Assembly (NCBI GenBank): GCA_026705605.1
Contig: JAPPAK010000008.1
Span: 62,001-126,000 of the forward strand
Direction of reading: 5' to 3'
DNA: 64,000 nucleotides
Source of the DNA: Chloroflexota bacterium
GTDB taxonomy: Bacteria > Chloroflexota > Dehalococcoidia > Tepidiformales > Tepidiformaceae
Below the pieces are notes generated by a model. The model saw only the letters and a program-made list of their open reading frames with translations, made no database searches and was not told the DNA's origin. This document shows, one piece after another, positions 6,036 to 16,355 of this stretch. The position numbers and the translations under genes are program-made. How positions within the stretch are numbered: the stretch's first letter is position 1; the number at the start of each line of letters is the position of its first letter.

Positions 6036-7751
6036 CTACATCCGCTCCGGCGCGGTCATGCCCATCAGGTCGAGCACGCGGCCGAGGGCGATCTTCGCGG
6101 CCTGCACCAGCCGCAGCCGCGCGGCCGTCAGGGCCGCGTCGTCCGTGATCACCTTCAGGTTGGGGTCTCCCTGCTGCCGGAACGCGTCGTTGAAGGCGTG
6201 GAACGACGTCGCCAGCTCCATGCCGTAGTGGGCGAGGTGCTGTGGTTCGTACGTCGTCGCGACCAGCTCGATCACCTCGGACAGGCGCAGCATCTCCCGC
6301 ACCAGCGCCAGCTCGTGCGGCGCCGTCAGGAGCGCGACGTCGCCACCGTCTGGCGTGTGCCCCTCGCCGGCTGCCCGGTCGAGGATGCTCGCCAGCCGCG
6401 CGTGCGCGTACTGGATATAGAACACCGGATTCTCGTTCGACTGCTTCACGGCGAGGTCCAGGTCGAAGTCCATCTGGGAGCTGGGAGCCCGTAGCAGGAA
6501 GAAGAAGCGGGCGGCGTCCGGCCCCACCTCTTCGATAAGCTCGTCGAGGGTGATGATCTCGCCACCCCGCTTCGAGAGCCGCACGGTTTCGCTTCCCCGC
6601 TTCAGCGTCACCAGCTGGTAGAGGAGCAGGTGGAGGGCGTCGCCCTTGCCGGTGACTGCCTCGGTCCCGACCTCCAGGCGAGATACGTGACCGTGGTGAT
6701 CCGCGCCCCACACGTTGATGACCTGGTCGAAACCCCGCGTCAGGAACTTGTCGTAGTGGTAGGCGATGTCGCTCGCGAAGTAGGTCGGGCGGCCGTCGGA
6801 CCGTACGACCACGTTGTCCTTGTCCTCGCCGAGGTTGCTCGAGGTCAGCCAGAGCGCGCCCTCGCGCTCGGCCAGGTGGCCGTTCTCGCGCAGGATCGCG
6901 AGAGCCGCGTCGTACGCGGATGGCTCGCCGTCTGCAGTGGCCTCGTAGAGCGACCGCTCGCTGAACCAGCGGTCATACGTGGTGCCGAAGGTGCCGAGCG
7001 TGTCCCGGATCTGCTCGACGATGAGCTCGATGCCCATCTCCCGCACACCCGCCGGCGGCGGCTCGCCCGGCGCGGCGAGGAAGCGGTCGCCCTCGCGCTC
7101 CCGCATCTCGATGGCCAGGTCGACCATGTACTCGCCCGGGTAACCGCCCTCGGGAAGGGGAACGTCGCGGCCGTGTTGCTGCTGGTAGCGGGCGTACAGC
7201 GTCTCCGCAAACACGTCCGTCTGGGTGCCCGCGTCATTCACATAATATTCGCGTTCGACTTGGTACCCGGCTGCCGCCAGCGCTGACGCGAGCGTGTCGC
7301 CGATGGCCGCCCCGCGGCCGTTCCCCACGTGCAGCGGCCCGGTGGGATTCGCCGAGACGAACTCCAGCTGCACCCGCTTCCCCTCGCCGAGGGTGCTGTC
7401 CGCGAACGCCGCGCCCTGCTCGATGATGCGGTCAATCTCGCCCTGCACGAAGTGCTCGGCCAGGCTCAGGTTGATGAAACCGGGCGGCGCGATCTGCGGC
7501 GCGTCGATGACGTCGTCGGAGGGAAGGTGCTCGGCGATCGCCTCGGCGATGGCCAGCGGCGGCATCATCGCCGAGCGGGCGAGGCGCAGGGGCAGGGAGC
7601 TGGCGTAGTCGCCGTGGCCCGCGTCGCGAGGCCGCTCGACGAGCTCGTCCGGCAGGGCCACATCGGGAAGGGTGCCCGCGTTGATCGCCGCCCGGGTCGC
7701 CCCGGCGACGAGCGCCCCTATGCGGTCCCGGAGCGTCGTGGTGTCAGTCAC
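6036..7751 (-). CDS. argS: Arginyl-tRNA synthetase
   Basis: This enzyme charges tRNA-Arg with arginine in the cytoplasm. From the GTG at 7751 the protein is 571 residues, a normal length. It has an N-terminal additional domain ending GFINLSLAEHFV, the class I signature FVSANPTGPLHVGNGRG with HVGN as the HIGH equivalent (residues 141-144), YYVNDAG, and the DALRP-like anticodon-binding domain at the end. The KMSKS loop is replaced by VRLSKRGGEIITLDEL, as usual for ArgRS, where this motif is degenerate. The start was chosen because TACGCT sits six bases before GTG with no ribosome site, as in other leaderless genes here. Confidence 0.95.
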   Translation of the reverse strand: MTDTTTLRDRIGALVAGATRAAINAGTLPDVALPDELVERPRDAGHGDYASSLPLRLARSAMMPPLAIAEAIAEHLPSDDVIDAPQIAPPGFINLSLAEHFVQGEIDRIIEQGAAFADSTLGEGKRVQLEFVSANPTGPLHVGNGRGAAIGDTLASALAAAGYQVEREYYVNDAGTQTDVFAETLYARYQQQHGRDVPLPEGGYPGEYMVDLAIEMREREGDRFLAAPGEPPPAGVREMGIELIVEQIRDTLGTFGTTYDRWFSERSLYEATADGEPSAYDAALAILRENGHLAEREGALWLTSSNLGEDKDNVVVRSDGRPTYFASDIAYHYDKFLTRGFDQVINVWGADHHGHVSRLEVGTEAVTGKGDALHLLLYQLVTLKRGSETVRLSKRGGEIITLDELIEEVGPDAARFFFLLRAPSSQMDFDLDLAVKQSNENPVFYIQYAHARLASILDRAAGEGHTPDGGDVALLTAPHELALVREMLRLSEVIELVATTYEPQHLAHYGMELATSFHAFNDAFRQQGDPNLKVITDDAALTAARLRLVQAAKIALGRVLDLMGMTAPERM

Positions 7752-7757
7752 CGCCCA

Positions 7758-7763
7758 AGCGTA
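7758..7763 (-). promoter_or_regulatory. -10 like hexamer TACGCT, probable leaderless start of argS
   Basis: On the minus strand TACGCT is followed by six bases (TGGGCG) and then the GTG start of argS. No Shine-Dalgarno sequence is present. Confidence 0.45.
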
Positions 7764-7794
7764 TCGCCTCTCGCTCCACCGGGGGAGTCGCGTC

Positions 7795-8289
7795 CTACAG
7801 GTCGAACGGGAACTGGTGTCGTTGCGCGAGTTCGGAGAGTTCCCCGACAGCCGCCTGGGCGTGTTCCACCACCTCGGGCGGGTAGCCGTACTTGAGCCGG
7901 TGCTCCTCGAACTCGTCCGCATCGAGCAGCTCGATCGTTCCGCCTGCCCGCACCGTCACGTCGAGGTCGAGGTCGATGTAGCGAATCTCGCCGTCCTCGA
8001 ACTCGGGTGGCGTGGTGACGTTGCAGTACCAGAGCGCCGTCTCCTCGCCCGGTTCGGCCAGGCGAAAGACGTTGTACCAGCGGTTCCGCCAGAAGTGGAC
8101 GTAGCTCTCGTAGCGGGAGCGAAACTCGCCCCGGCTCGTGAAGATCGGGCTTCCCGCCGAGGCGTGCGCCTGCACGAGCGAGCCGTCGTCCGAGAGGACG
8201 CGCAGGTGCTGGATCCAGTGCGCCTCGCCGTCGTACTTGGTGACGCGCAGCAGCAGGGGATCGCCGCGAGCAATGGGAGCGCCGTTCAT
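7795..8289 (-). CDS. DUF402 family protein (possible nucleoside phosphatase relative)
   Basis: The 164-residue protein matches the DUF402 layout: VHFWRNRWYNVFRL, then WYCNVTTPPEFEDGEIRYIDLDLDVTV, then ELLDADEFEEHRLKYGYPPEVV. The YIDLDLDV and DADEFEEH acidic clusters are the metal-binding positions in Ntdp-type nucleoside tri/diphosphatases and FomD-like relatives of this family. Which substrate it uses is unknown. The gene is upstream of argS on the same strand with a 43-base gap and has its own leaderless-type promoter hexamer. Confidence 0.8.
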   Translation of the reverse strand: MNGAPIARGDPLLLRVTKYDGEAHWIQHLRVLSDDGSLVQAHASAGSPIFTSRGEFRSRYESYVHFWRNRWYNVFRLAEPGEETALWYCNVTTPPEFEDGEIRYIDLDLDVTVRAGGTIELLDADEFEEHRLKYGYPPEVVEHAQAAVGELSELAQRHQFPFDL

Positions 8290-8295
8290 GCTTCG

Positions 8296-8301
8296 ATGAT
8301 A
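8296..8301 (-). promoter_or_regulatory. -10 like hexamer TATCAT, probable leaderless start of the DUF402 gene
   Basis: On the minus strand TATCAT is followed by six bases (CGAAGC) and the ATG at 8289. It matches the TATAAT consensus at five of six positions. Confidence 0.5.
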
Positions 8302-12300: not shown

Positions 12301-12772
12301 CCTGCCCCAGGCCTCGGCCGAGTCGTTCCAGAAACTGCTCGACGACCAGCGTGCGGCCTCGCAGGGCTTCCTCCTGCTCTTCCAGGGATTCATGGGGCTC
12401 GGCCTCATCATCGGCATTGCCGCCCTCGGCGTGATCGCCTTCCGCGCCGTCGTCGAGCGCCGCCAGCAGATCGGCATGCTCCGCGCCATCGGCTACCAGC
12501 GCTCGATGGTCGCCCTCAGCTTTGTCTTCGAGTCGGGCTTCGTCGCCCTCTCCGGGATCATCCTGGGGGCCGTCCTGGGCGTCTCCCTCTCGTGGGTCCT
12601 CTTCACGTCGGGCGGCATCGGCGAGGCCTCCGAGGGCGCGGACTTCATCGTTCCCTGGCTCCAACTTATCGTCATCTGCGGAATTGCCTTCGGAGCCTCG
12701 ATGATCATGACCTGGTTCCCCGCCCAGAGCGCCTCGCGCGTCGCCGTCGCCGAGGCCCTCCGCTACGAATGA
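9389..12772 (+). CDS. Large FtsX-family ABC transporter permease
   Basis: The 1127-residue membrane protein has an N-terminal helix (about residues 7-30), a long extracytoplasmic region, then a FtsX block with GLFSIAAGILLIFLIFIML and the conserved AAERKPEMGMARAVGAKRR coupling loop. A central cluster of about eight hydrophobic helices follows (about residues 465-720), then a second extracytoplasmic domain. A second FtsX block ends the protein, with ERRQQIGMLRAIGYQRSMV. Two FtsX blocks in one chain suggest one polypeptide forms the whole membrane unit, unlike dimeric MacB. The middle cluster of extra helices is unusual for LolE/MacB proteins but known in long permeases of G+C-rich bacteria. The stop overlaps the SDR start (ATGA). 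Confidence 0.9.
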   Translation: MDELFGVSMNTIAAVVVIITLAILVLLAWVAFRNPVMFKTGLRNIPRRRAQTTLIVFGLMLATVIMTVAFGTGDTVSSTVTDDIYQLTGETDMLIVWDEEGSPRPEDERVIPLEEVAAWEERFANDPDIDGFLPILLETLPVINTATGLNEAGATIVAYDTEAAAPFGSLRDLDGKAITLTGNQVVLNEDLAGEIDAEVGHTLVLLYQGYPLEVDVVAIAPNSFLSGTFNVGASEFPGGAVSFDFLAEVIGRDDIAYAVVVTNAGGVRDGLERSDVVEEKLNEVIDGTPYEVQPLKKDAIEIAKLVGSVFTTVFIIFGLFSIAAGILLIFLIFIMLAAERKPEMGMARAVGAKRRHLVESFLAEGMGYDLGAAIVGLVAGIFVTFGMVGLINAFAETGLGLELRTNLTPRSLVVAFCLGVISTFVVIFFAAVRASRLNIVAAIRDLPEPIVINPEAATWRGYARAVLNAAVVGGAIAVSVFALYRLPDFAPLFSIALLFGLIGPYVHMLRRQNFGAPRHERIAGQRMPLWPFLLVPLIPFYLVALLIVRVMRDRNPQVSFWLIVLGILLPPVGLVLIASQDRDRPIAWGAGFGVVGLALAALFMEWAFSSDSYFFFAGGMSLAFGWAAFTLRYFRLHERISFTILACLLLAFWYVSPAGALDFIIGDLEGGPELFFLSGIVMVACGTFLVVYNADILLPPIATLGARLGRIVPAVKTAVAYPLTARMRTGMTIMMIGLITFSLVMFSTVNDNFTNIFLSDDAKGGFDTIVFVNSNNRTDDLVATLEQNGVDTAPIVAVSEQRIAFAGETEIFVDAPAGPGVAGTFTVIGADAAFFATNEFELKRRAAGYASDEEVWAAVAGDPTLAVIPGELTDTAGDEFSDFELLKLDPSLVEEGFEPFTLHLHAPGTDLNTSVTVIGQMDDPADIFWAAIIVQRDTVVAAFPDSDSQRFVIKTRDGTDQEAFAKSIESGLPQASAESFQKLLDDQRAASQGFLLLFQGFMGLGLIIGIAALGVIAFRAVVERRQQIGMLRAIGYQRSMVALSFVFESGFVALSGIILGAVLGVSLSWVLFTSGGIGEASEGADFIVPWLQLIVICGIAFGASMIMTWFPAQSASRVAVAEALRYE

Positions 12773-13563
12773 GCGCGGCGAACGACCGCCCCGAGCTGCG
12801 CGGTACGCAGCTCTTCGACCTCACCGGACGCGTCGCCATCATGACGGGCGCCGGGCGCGGCCTCGGCCGCACGATGGCCCTCGCCCTGGCCGCCGCAGGA
12901 GCCGATCTCGCCCTTGCCAGCCGCACCGCCTCGGAGCTTGACTCCCTTGTCGAAGAGGTGGAGGCGCTGGGCCGGCGCGCCATCGCCGTTCCCACCGACG
13001 TGACCTCCCCGGAGGCGTGCGAGGCGATGGTGGCCGCCGCCGTCGGGCGGCTCGGGCGCCTCGACATCCTCGTGAACAATGCCGGCATGAACGTCCGCAA
13101 GCCCGCCCTCGAGCTCACACCGGATGAGTTCGACTCCGTCCTTCAGGTCAACCTGAAGGGCTATTACAACGGCGCCCGGTCAGCGGGCCGGCACTTCGTC
13201 GCGCAGGGCTCCGGGAAGCTCATCAACGTCTCCAGCATCCTTGGCAGCGTCGCCCTGCCGAACCAGGCCGCCTACGCCTCGTCCAAGGGTGCGATCGACC
13301 AGCTCACGAAGGTGCTCGCGATTGAGTGGGCCGACGCCACAGTCCAGGTGAACGGCCTCGCCCCGACCTACTTCGAGACGGACCTGACCCGCCCGCTCTA
13401 CGAAGACCCCGAGCGCAAGGCCTTCATCGAAGACCGCACGCCTATGGGCCGCTGGGGACAGCCCCACGAGCTCGCCGGCGCCGTCATCTTCCTCGCGAGC
13501 GACGCTAGCGACTTCGTCACCGGCCAGACGATCCTCGTCGACGGCGGCTGGACGGCCTGGTAG
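12769..13563 (+). CDS. SDR family NAD(P)-dependent oxidoreductase
   Basis: The 264-residue protein is a classical short-chain dehydrogenase. It has the cofactor motif TGAGRGLGRT (about residues 26-35), ILVNNAG, the catalytic serine in INVSSILGS, the YxxxK pair in AAYASSKGAIDQ, and the C-terminal GQTILVDGGWTAW ending typical of glucose-dehydrogenase/FabG-like enzymes. An arginine after the first strand (SRTASE) suggests NADP preference. Its ATG overlaps the permease stop, so it is translationally coupled to the exporter, an odd pairing. Substrate is unknown. Confidence 0.88.
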   Translation: MSAANDRPELRGTQLFDLTGRVAIMTGAGRGLGRTMALALAAAGADLALASRTASELDSLVEEVEALGRRAIAVPTDVTSPEACEAMVAAAVGRLGRLDILVNNAGMNVRKPALELTPDEFDSVLQVNLKGYYNGARSAGRHFVAQGSGKLINVSSILGSVALPNQAAYASSKGAIDQLTKVLAIEWADATVQVNGLAPTYFETDLTRPLYEDPERKAFIEDRTPMGRWGQPHELAGAVIFLASDASDFVTGQTILVDGGWTAW

Positions 13564-13568
13564 CCGCT

Positions 13569-13964
13569 CTACGTCCCGCCGATCTGCGGCTCCCAGAGCG
13601 TGAAGAAGTACCCGTCCGGCCCCATTACCTGGCACGTCCGCCCCGTCCCGTCGTCGTGCGGCGGCTGGATGCTGACGTAGCCCATCTCGACCGCCTTCCG
13701 GTGCCGCGCGTCGATCGCGTCCACCTGGATGCGCACCTCCGCCCCGATACCCCGCGCCGCCCCCTCGTTGGCGAGCGCCTGACGCCACGGGTGCCCCTCG
13801 TACGACTCGTCCGAGTGCAGCTGGATCTCCGCGCCTTGCAGCGCGAGGCCGGCGAAGCCGGGGTGCCGTGTCTCCAGCGTCGCGCCGGCGACGTCGGTCA
13901 GGAACGCTGCGAAGCCGTTCAGGTCGGTCGCCCAGAGGACGATGCTGAGTGCCCCCTGCGGCAT
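13569..13964 (-). CDS. VOC (glyoxalase/bleomycin resistance fold) protein
   Basis: This is a 131-residue single-module VOC protein: ALSIVLWATDLNGFAAFL as the first strand-helix, GAEIQLHSDESYEGHPW in the middle, and a C-terminal CQVMGPDGYFFTLWEP strand holding the usual metal-binding glutamate. Such proteins bind metals and act as dioxygenases, epimerases, isomerases or resistance proteins. Its start lies five bases beyond the stop of the DUF35 gene on the same strand, so it is the last gene of the thiolase-like/DUF35/VOC group. A role as epimerase for an acyl-CoA is conceivable by context only. Confidence 0.75.
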   Translation of the reverse strand: MPQGALSIVLWATDLNGFAAFLTDVAGATLETRHPGFAGLALQGAEIQLHSDESYEGHPWRQALANEGAARGIGAEVRIQVDAIDARHRKAVEMGYVSIQPPHDDGTGRTCQVMGPDGYFFTLWEPQIGGT

Positions 13965-13969
13965 GGGAG

Positions 13970-14383
13970 TCAGGCCACGGGGCGGAAGCGGGGGACGGGC
14001 GCCTCCCCTTCGTGCTCCCACACCACCTCGACGGGCATGCCGACGACGATCTCGTCGTTCGGGACGCCGATGATGTTCGCAGGCATGCGCGGGCCTTCGT
14101 CCAGCTCCACGACCGCGATGTTGTAGGGAAGATCGGGCTCCCAGGCGGGGTGGTAGCGCTGGTGCATGATTCCGAACGTGTAGACGGTCCCGCGTCCGCT
14201 CACCTCTTTCCAGCTGATCCCCTCGGCCAGGCAGGTGGGGCAGGTGGGGGACGTGGGGAGGCGCATCTCGCCGCACATGTCGCAGGTTGCGAGCAGCAGG
14301 CGGCCCTCCTTGCCGGCGGCGAAGAAGGGTTCCGTCAGCTCATCGGGCTGGGAGACGGGCTTCACGGGTGGGGAGTCGGCCAT
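13970..14383 (-). CDS. Zn-ribbon OB-fold (DUF35) acyl-CoA-binding protein
   Basis: The 137-residue protein has a rubredoxin-like zinc ribbon with cysteines at 34, 37, 48 and 51 (CDMC...CPTC), followed by an OB-fold with GRGTVYTFGIMHQRYHP and PYNIAVVELDEGPRMPANI. DUF35 proteins partner thiolase-fold enzymes: in archaea they channel acetoacetyl-CoA, and in actinobacterial sterol degradation ChsH2-type DUF35 domains are required by the Ltp2 retro-aldolase. Here it lies 11 bases downstream of a thiolase-like gene on the same strand, so a complex between the two is very likely. The ribbon appears intact. Confidence 0.88.
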   Translation of the reverse strand: MADSPPVKPVSQPDELTEPFFAAGKEGRLLLATCDMCGEMRLPTSPTCPTCLAEGISWKEVSGRGTVYTFGIMHQRYHPAWEPDLPYNIAVVELDEGPRMPANIIGVPNDEIVVGMPVEVVWEHEGEAPVPRFRPVA

Positions 14384-14394
14384 CGTGCGTCGCC

Positions 14395-15585
14395 TCAGTT
14401 CGCGTGCGGGCTCAGGATGAGTGAGGCGTGGTAGCTCAACGCCCCCCCGTTGCCCGTCGAGAGGATGAGGTCGTTCTTCTCGACCTGGCGCTCGCCGCCC
14501 TGCCCGCGTCCCTGGATGATCGCTTCGCTCAGGGGGGTCATGCCCCACATGTAGTACGCGGAGAGCTGGCCGCCGCCCGTGTTCGTCGGGAGCGAGCCGC
14601 CGGGGCCGAGCTTCCCGTCCTCCACGAAGGCGCCGCCCTCGCCCTTCTTGCAGAAGCCGTAGTCCTCGAGCGTGACCAGCACGGTGTAGGTGTAGCAGTC
14701 GTACAGCTCGCAGACGTCGATGTCCTCGGGGCCCACGCCCGCCATACCGAAGACGGTCTCCGCGGCCAGCCGCGCGCCCGTCTCCGTTTCCGGGGAGTCT
14801 CCTGCGTGTCGGCTGTCGCCGGGGTGCCCCTGGCCCATGCCATGGACGTACACGGGCGGCTGCGGCATGTCCTTCGCCTGGTCCGGCGGGCTTACGATCA
14901 CCGCCACCGCGCCGTTCGAGACGAGGCAGCAGTCGAGCAGATGAAGCGGCTCCACGATCCAGCGGGAGGCGTGGTACTCCTCCAGCGTGAGCGGGTCCCG
15001 CATCTTCGCGTGCGGGTTCATCGTCGCCCACGAGCGCTCCGCCACCGCGATCGCCCCGAGCTGGTCCTGTGTGGTGCCGTAGAGCGACATGTGCCGCCGG
15101 GCGGCCAGCGCGTACGAGGTGTTCGCGCCGAAGTGCCCCGCTCCCGCCGAGAGCCCGAGGATGCCCGTCGGACCCGCCCGGCGACCCGCGTTGCCGTAGG
15201 CCGCCGCCGAGGAGCCGCCCTGCTGCAGGGGAGCGTCGGCGAAGACGCAGACCACGTGTTTGGCCATGCCCGCGTCGATCGCCATCGTCGCGTACTGCAC
15301 CATCTGTGCCGCCGTCGAACCGGCCGCGTTCATGTGGTTCAGAAGGCGGAGGTTGCCCATGCCGAGGGCGTTCTGGAGCTGCAGGCTTACGCCCTGGCCG
15401 GAAAACCCCGTGATGCCGGCATTGATGAGCAGGCCGTCGATGTCGGACTTCTCGAGCCCTGCATCGGCGATGGCGAGGCGTACGGCATCGACCGCGAAAT
15501 CGGTCGAACTCTTGCCGTAGATGCGCCCCATGGGCGTAATGCCGAGACCGGTGATGGCGGCTGCGCCGCGTAGTCGATGTGCCAT
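14395..15585 (-). CDS. Thiolase-like (lipid-transfer-type) enzyme lacking the usual nucleophilic Cys; possible aldolase
   Basis: The 396-residue protein has the thiolase fold: GAAAITGLGITPMG at the start, DAVRLAIADAGL helix, and the C-terminal half EDIDVCELYDCYTYTVLVT with GFCKKGEGGAFV typical of SCP-x/lipid-transfer thiolases. Where thiolases of this group read NACATGSTA, this protein reads HMNAAGSTA, placing Asn at about residue 86 instead of the catalytic cysteine. The C-terminal NTHGG histidine motif reads NTGGG (about residue 335). These replacements, and the adjoining DUF35 gene, fit Ltp2-like retro-aldolases rather than thiolysis. The alignment is from memory and should be tested. A TAGAAT hexamer seven bases before ATG suggests leaderless expression. 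Confidence 0.85.
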   Translation of the reverse strand: MAHRLRGAAAITGLGITPMGRIYGKSSTDFAVDAVRLAIADAGLEKSDIDGLLINAGITGFSGQGVSLQLQNALGMGNLRLLNHMNAAGSTAAQMVQYATMAIDAGMAKHVVCVFADAPLQQGGSSAAAYGNAGRRAGPTGILGLSAGAGHFGANTSYALAARRHMSLYGTTQDQLGAIAVAERSWATMNPHAKMRDPLTLEEYHASRWIVEPLHLLDCCLVSNGAVAVIVSPPDQAKDMPQPPVYVHGMGQGHPGDSRHAGDSPETETGARLAAETVFGMAGVGPEDIDVCELYDCYTYTVLVTLEDYGFCKKGEGGAFVEDGKLGPGGSLPTNTGGGQLSAYYMWGMTPLSEAIIQGRGQGGERQVEKNDLILSTGNGGALSYHASLILSPHAN

Positions 15586-15629: not shown

Positions 15630-16355
15630 TTAGAAGCGGTAGGTCTCGTAGTCCTTCGCGACCACCGTGCGCGCCAGGTCCGTCTGCACATCGGGCGTGA
15701 CGTGCGTCAGCACGAGCCTCGCCGAGGCGGGCATTGCCGCGTGTAGCTCGGGAATGTCGTCGACCAGGTTCATGTGAATCGGGATGGGGATGTCGCGCGA
15801 GGCGCACTCGGCCACGAGCACGTCCGCCTCGCGCGCGAGGTCAAAGACGGCGTCGCAGAGGCGCGTATCCCCCGTGTACGCGAAGCGCTCGCCCTCCAGC
15901 TTGGCCTGGTACCCGAGGTTGAGCGACAACCGGTTGTCGTGCTCGACCGCCACCGCCTCGACCGTCAGGTCCCCGACCGTCGTGGAGTCGCCCGCGGCCA
16001 GTTCCCGCCACTCGATGCCGAACTCGCCCTCGAACAGTCCCGGGTAGACCGTCCCGCCGACTTCGCGGGCCAGTCGCTCCGTCTCCGGCGGTCCCACGAT
16101 CGTGACCGGGGTCCTCCGGCCCTGGTGCTTCCAGTGCAGCAGCAGGAACGGCAGGCCCAGGAAGTGGTCACCGTGGTGGTGGCTCAGCACGACCGCCTCG
16201 ACCGTGTTCGGATCCACGCCGACGCGGTGCAGCGACATGAGCGCCTGCGGAGGCGCCTCGAAGAGGTAGCGGCCGTTCGCGAGGAACCCGTTCCAGCAGA
16301 GTCCTCCGGCGGCGAATGCGTTCCCCGTGCCGATGAAGGTCAGGTCGAGCGACAT
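15630..16355 (-). CDS. MBL-fold metallo-hydrolase, RNase Z-like
   Basis: The 241-residue product has the beta-lactamase-fold metal motif LSHHHGDHFLG (HxHxDH form), an early LTFIGTGNAFA strand seen in RNase Z and phosphodiesterase relatives, AYTGDTRLCD with the metal-bridging aspartate, and a late VLTHVTPD histidine. It lacks the exosite arm of classical tRNase Z, so it may be a cyclic-nucleotide or aryl-ester hydrolase instead. The ATG at 16355 is preferred to the one at 16364 because TAGGAT lies seven bases before it and overlaps the earlier ATG. It is divergent from the arginine operon. Confidence 0.82.
   Translation of the reverse strand: MSLDLTFIGTGNAFAAGGLCWNGFLANGRYLFEAPPQALMSLHRVGVDPNTVEAVVLSHHHGDHFLGLPFLLLHWKHQGRRTPVTIVGPPETERLAREVGGTVYPGLFEGEFGIEWRELAAGDSTTVGDLTVEAVAVEHDNRLSLNLGYQAKLEGERFAYTGDTRLCDAVFDLAREADVLVAECASRDIPIPIHMNLVDDIPELHAAMPASARLVLTHVTPDVQTDLARTVVAKDYETYRF

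Follow-up and report, generated by a model that had tools for sequence, protein, structure and literature searches.

The closest described relatives of the protein considered here are thiolase-fold enzymes associated with DUF35 proteins. The nearest one with an assigned role is IpfD; the match on plasmid pIBU218 is WP_226949243.1 from Rhizorhabdus wittichii MPO218, which is entered as IpfD in PMC11347016, and an ipfD insertion mutant does not use ibuprofen, according to the accessible part of PMC9195938. Ltp2-ChsH2 (6ok1) is known from Thermomonospora curvata and Sal-Shy (9myr) from Comamonas testosteroni. The catalytic residues are reported to be Tyr294/Tyr344 in Ltp2 and Tyr302 and Cys304 in Sal, which has Gln352 for Tyr344, and the substrate hydroxyl reportedly touches the backbone amide of CtSal Gly89 (PMC12329534, in the portion available). 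In Sal-Shy, DUF35 is a domain of Shy, alongside a MaoC hydratase (excerpted text of PMC11321319). The present analysis concerns a gene pair from a Chloroflexota bacterium, located on a 64,000-nucleotide stretch of contig JAPPAK010000008.1 (positions 62,001 to 126,000) that is called the window.

The first gene (14395..15585, minus strand) encodes a 396-amino acid putative aldolase of the IpfD clade, a Cys-less thiolase-fold protein that matches Pfam Thiolase_C_1 at 146.7 bits, with Thiolase_N below threshold. As the earlier note on this DNA had reported, a DUF35 gene (13970..14383, minus strand; 137 amino acids) lies 11 bases away, with a VOC gene beyond it. The DUF35 protein is composed of a zf-ChsH2 zinc ribbon with four Cys and an OB_ChsH2_C domain, and matches 6ok1_B with an E value of 4e-23. 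The pair is probably an IpfD-clade retro-aldolase that depends on DUF35 and acts on a hindered beta-hydroxyacyl-coenzyme A (CoA). Its assignment to the aldolases is well supported by the sequence, the residues and the partner gene, and the predicted fold agrees; chemistry, direction and complex formation are inferred. For the window gene alone, the departure from the known DUF35-aldolase kind is modest.

The window protein is 53% identical to IpfD over 395 amino acids. Gly89, Tyr295, Tyr345, His386, NTGGG and a DUF35 partner are common to both, whereas IpfD has YDAF, without Cys297, and LQGMT. IpfE (L038:10201-10599), the DUF35 partner of IpfD, and the window DUF35 protein share 29% over 101 amino acids, a stretch in which IpfE shows no zinc-ribbon cysteine pairs. 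The ipfD gene lies between dioxygenase subunit genes on one side and an OB-fold and a CoA-ligase gene on the other; the ipf genes thereby adjoin a Rieske dioxygenase and a CoA ligase, unlike the window pair. Ltp2 and Sal fall in separate clades from the window protein. Ltp2 has YDHF, with an oxyanion-hole His, and NTHGG where the window protein has YDCY and NTGGG, and Sal has Gln352 at Tyr345. The putative thiolase 4u4e of Sphaerobacter thermophilus has YDSF and a His at the Tyr345 column, and belongs to the clade of two paralogs from the window's genome (L004 and L006).

Active-site residues of the window protein

The nucleophilic Cys of thiolases is replaced by Gly89 (codon 15319..15321; this and the codons below are on the minus strand). 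This column was identified by MAFFT alignment with the Cys-thiolase 7yvy, and corresponds by chain numbering to CtSal Gly89. Two ordinary thiolases from the source genome, in a weak hhalign match (probability 27, E 7e-4), place Gly89 there as well. The earlier note had put Asn86 at this position, and had taken NTHGG for the thiolase histidine motif. The strings on which it relied, HMNAAGSTA and NTGGG, do occur in the open reading frame (residues 84-92 and 335-339), but laying GSTA on GSTA slips the alignment by three residues, and the 7yvy histidines of HDAF and GHP align on Tyr295 and Tyr345, respectively. The predicted structure, which agrees with a thiolase fold, has Gly89 at the beginning of a helix (88-104) and Asn86 in the preceding loop. 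Asn86 is also variable (67/101 distinct clade rows). The note's statement that Cys and His are lost is therefore right, on motif grounds that were wrong: the nucleophilic Cys and the GHP His are absent, and the protein is not an ordinary Cys thiolase. The second catalytic Cys may be missing as well: in a by-eye comparison, the protein reads STGNGG where the genome's own ordinary thiolases have CIGGG or CVGGG, the CxG loop.

Three candidate catalytic groups remain. Tyr295 (codon 14701..14703), the proposed general base, corresponds to Ltp2 Tyr294 and Sal Tyr302, and its YDCY context fits the YDxF/Y base motif of DUF35-partnered aldolases. Cys297 (codon 14695..14697) occupies the column of the catalytic Cys304 of Sal, which is TGA in some Sal-type relatives. 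Tyr345 (codon 14551..14553) stands at Ltp2 Tyr344, so that both Ltp2 tyrosines, which the earlier note had proposed to check, are kept in the alignment. Both candidate general acids, the Ltp2-type Tyr345 and the Sal-type Cys297, are thus present by alignment, and the window clade most likely combines all three groups in a Tyr295-Cys297-Tyr345 (Tyr-Cys-Tyr) site.

Conservation was tallied over 108 clade rows, 101 of them distinct; L087 had dropped out of a residue tally at a length filter. Gly89, Tyr295, Tyr345, Gly337 and His386 are kept in all 101, and Cys297 in 98, with Ala in two and Ser in one. Since 80 of the clade rows were found with motifs overlapping residues 294-311, part of the conservation in this region reflects ascertainment; Gly89, Tyr345 and His386 are not in it. 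His386 (codon 14428..14430) is invariant within the clade, and its column holds other residues in Sal, 4u4e and seven paralogs from the same genome, a comparison that does not cover Ltp2 and 7yvy.

Clade placement, partner gene and proposed reaction

A 57-row tree unites the window protein with IpfD and relatives in a 38-row clade (100/99), and the window protein does not cluster with ordinary acetyltransferases. Ltp2 groups with paralogs L002, L003, L007 and L008 of the window's genome (99/97), Sal with L005 (100/93), and 4u4e with L004 and L006 (100/99 for the four). The positions of the long rows L002, L003, L006 and especially L008 are unsure. A 39-row tree that omits L007, L008 and the ordinary thiolases gives the window/IpfD clade 97/97, and 100/100 once L032 and L033 join. 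On this tree, with groups named after the 57-row tree had been seen, the approximately unbiased (AU) test rejected joining the clade to Ltp2 alone (p-AU 0.005), joining it to Sal alone (p-AU 0.0009), and grouping IpfD with Ltp2 (p-AU 0.001). IpfD nested in the window group and IpfD as its sister are not separated (p-AU 0.197). Membership of the window protein in the IpfD clade, not in Ltp2 proper or Sal proper, is well supported by these trees. The clade has members from Chloroflexota, Actinomycetota, Pseudomonadota and Myxococcota, which places the ibuprofen enzyme within a wide multi-phylum group.

An ortholog of at least 74% identity occurs in 22 of the 24 sampled genomes of the family, the source genome included. 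Within 1.5-kb flanks, DUF35 accompanies it in 22/22 and VOC in 20/22. The gene pair is not a chance arrangement because the ortholog is so widely carried, each time with DUF35 beside it. Of 86 loci of the whole clade, 83 have a same-strand DUF35 gene no more than 1 kb away, and in 78 of these it is within 200 bp. The VOC-superfamily gene (13569..13964, minus strand; 131 amino acids) behaves differently. A VOC gene lies no more than 3 kb away at only 9/86 clade loci, and among 197 genomes profile matches to it are strong in 14 family genomes and weak in 8 others. In genome G021, the thiolase and DUF35 genes are precisely the two that are missing, and the VOC and MBL homologs stand 108 bp apart between the same flanks as in the window, argC/argJ and an ABC permease (L139, G021:C1:694000-709000, 7133-8301). 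This difference is a clean two-gene gain or loss. Because G021 keeps VOC without the pair and so few clade loci have it nearby, the VOC-containing complex suggested earlier is unlikely, and the VOC protein is probably not a subunit.

Around the 86 clade loci, CaiB was found at 25, ECH at 16, AMP ligases at 16, P450 at 8 and Rieske at 2, with any acyl-CoA gene at 45 and any oxygenase at 26; the neighbour clusters were named from one representative each, and Rieske from plasmid annotation. A ring-hydroxylating dioxygenase and a CoA ligase adjoin the pair in L038 and L041. Neither a Rieske dioxygenase nor a CoA ligase adjoins the window pair, whose neighbors are MBL, VOC and SDR genes.

In the proposed reaction, a P450, a Rieske dioxygenase or a hydratase would make a hindered beta-hydroxyacyl-CoA, probably tertiary or ring-bound, which would bind in the thiolase cleft, with the DUF35 protein closing it. 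There, Tyr295 would accept the proton of the beta-hydroxyl, which may also touch the Gly89 backbone. Cleavage of the C-alpha/C-beta bond would then release an acyl-CoA enolate alongside a ketone or an aldehyde, and Tyr345 and/or Cys297 would return a proton, resulting in acetyl- or propionyl-CoA. No covalent thioester is expected because the nucleophilic Cys is Gly. Ordinary beta-oxidation halts where no ketone can form at the beta carbon, and cleavage of the beta-hydroxyacyl-CoA itself would be a way round this block.

The earlier note had drawn a parallel with Ltp2-type aldolases. A Cys-less, DUF35-partnered thiolase-fold aldolase kind is well supported, but a true Ltp2 ortholog that strips sterol or hopanoid side chains is quite unlikely. 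The protein lies outside the Ltp2 clade (AU p 0.005), and Ltp2 groups instead with four other paralogs of the genome (L002, L003, L007 and L008), though on long branches; the motif is YDCY and not YDHF, and no MaoC hydratase is among the five scanned neighbors. Aldolases are reversible, which allows a biosynthetic direction in which an acyl-CoA enolate is added by aldol reaction to a ketone or aldehyde, and the gene is kept family-wide at a single syntenic position, not as part of a xenobiotic island. The clade neighborhoods nevertheless appear catabolic, with CaiB, ECH, ligases and P450, and G021 does without the pair, making this direction quite unlikely.

Two further readings give up the aldol chemistry. 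A slow acyl-CoA decarboxylase like TbSLP is very unlikely, as TbSLP is without a DUF35 domain in the available portion of PMC12329534. Loss of the nucleophilic Cys would also suit a thiolase that has lost catalysis and serves just to carry or bind acyl-CoA, yet Gly89, Tyr295, Tyr345 and His386 are invariant over several phyla and the ipfD mutant fails on ibuprofen (PMC9195938, accessible part); this reading is highly improbable. A retro-aldolase of the IpfD clade is thus preferred.

Paralogous pairs and in-frame TGA codons in Sal-type relatives

The source genome (G000; 2.79 Mb, 9 contigs) encodes eight Cys-less thiolase homologs, each adjoining one of eight DUF35 matches, and three ordinary thiolases that pass the family cut-off. 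Gly stands at the Cys column in seven of the eight, with L008 unaligned there. The other seven pairs (L002-L008) represent three more subtypes, namely Ltp2-like, Sal-like and 4u4e-like. Contigs C2-C8 hold 34 P450, 17 Rieske and 47 CaiB matches, a few of the Rieske and CaiB matches being pieces of one frame. This oxygenase and CoA-transferase gene load is heavy for 2.79 Mb. In SAR202, oxygenases and CaiB transferases have been proposed to feed beta-oxidation of recalcitrant matter, and the word thiolase has zero occurrences in the available text of the papers concerned (PMC5395668, PMC6946804). The presence of eight of these pairs alongside dozens of oxygenase genes in one 2.8-Mb genome would supply a step, open to testing, that the proposed SAR202-like degradation of recalcitrant carbon lacks.

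Some Sal-type relatives in the class Dehalococcoidia carry in-frame TGA codons. In the thiolase homologs of genome G029, TGA occurs exactly at YD*YT in 2/4 genes and at NG*GG or NT*RG in 4/4 (L141, G029:C34:9500-14500, at 1887, 2142, 3645 and 3900; also L142, L143 and further rows among L147-L196). At least 97 of 294 class genomes have a match with an E value no higher than 1e-60. The aligned set was built from the best 30 loci among the matches listed, 20 regions picked mostly for a TGA flag and three more regions, and its 56 rows less four copies cut off at locus ends leave 52 full-length genes. Internal TGA is present in 37/52, which in a selected, TGA-enriched set is not a frequency: 12 have it at the Cys297 and Asn379 columns and 25 at the Asn379 column alone. 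The remaining 15 carry either Cys or Ser at the first of these columns and either Asn or Thr at the second, and every other TGA of the set is a C-terminal end. The TGA flags in G020, G170, G056, G254, G269 and G054 were likewise rejected as C-terminal ends.

These relatives are probably selenocysteine aldolases. The 37 genes are spread over 20 genomes and 8 families (f2, f7, f22, f24, f26, f31, f50, f58), and in all 37 the frame continues 16-21 residues beyond the last internal TGA to the stop. TGA is not generally recoded in L152 and L184, because the same gene terminates in TGA there. DUF35 is nearby in 15/15 internal-TGA loci having flanks. Hairpins resembling selenocysteine insertion sequences are enriched downstream, more clearly for the Asn379 column, where the stem threshold is passed by 24/36 TGA sites against 5/15 others and 14% of shuffles; 2/36 sites lack a hairpin, and the loop has GU in 14/36. 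A 6-bp stem at +16 to +32 shows compensatory changes in 3/6 pairs (16/36 sequences, chosen for one register). For the Cys297 column, the mean stem score is 5.09 at 11 TGA sites against 2.49 at 40 others. A tRNA-Sec above 60 bits is present in 19/20 TGA-gene genomes and in 40/49 genomes searched, the source genome included; this line was set here, and Rfam's own cut-off is passed by 46/49 genomes and 5/14 controls. SelB is above cut-off in G029 and G000, and also in 2/14 controls.

Several points weigh against selenocysteine, beginning with the selection of the set for TGA. Strong tRNA-Sec matches also occur in most genomes without internal TGA and so do not discriminate. At the Asn379 column, TGA alternates with Asn or Thr and never with Cys, which is unusual for selenocysteine. 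Only 4/11 TGA sites at the Cys297 column pass the stem threshold, against 2/40 others and 9% of shuffles, and RNAalifold on ungapped whole sets found little. The open-access literature searched gave no precedent for thiolase-fold selenoenzymes. If these relatives are selenoproteins, they would represent thiolase-fold selenoenzymes and with them a new selenoenzyme fold, and this probable branch of the superfamily adds interest beyond the window gene. The exchange of the Cys codon for in-frame TGA in relatives independently suggests that the Cys297 column matters for catalysis.

A wider reading is plausible but tentative. DUF35-linked thiolase-fold aldolases may be a chalcogen-using family in which the window clade has a third site type, Tyr295-Cys297-Tyr345, joining the Sal Cys to the second Ltp2 Tyr with the clade-specific His386, and Sal-type relatives have selenocysteine at the Cys297 column and the Asn379 loop. 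Together, they would provide a retro-aldol exit for oxygenated, beta-blocked acyl-CoAs of recalcitrant organic matter in Dehalococcoidia.

Other features of the locus and its relatives

The minus-strand genes run in the order MBL-fold hydrolase, thiolase-fold gene, DUF35 and VOC. The MBL-fold hydrolase (15630..16355, minus strand), the upstream neighbor of the thiolase-fold gene, is RNase Z/phosphodiesterase-like. An SDR gene (12769-13563, plus strand) is convergent with the minus-strand genes, and argC/argJ flank them on the other side. Matching loci occur at 99% identity in the Chloroflexi metagenome-assembled genome IRC3_bin_22 and at 78% in Tepidiforma flava. Elsewhere in the window, a P450 gene (52612-53952) encodes 446 amino acids; in L050, from the window's family, a P450 lies less than 100 bp upstream of the pair. 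Paralog L004 adjoins what looks, by eye, like an HpcH/HpaI-type aldolase gene. Actinobacterial islands (L086, L091, L098, L101, L104 and L105) hold P450, CaiB, a FAS1-like dehydratase, the thiolase-DUF35 pair, a CoA ligase and an HpcH/HpaI lyase in varying combinations, and possibly represent a catabolic pathway.
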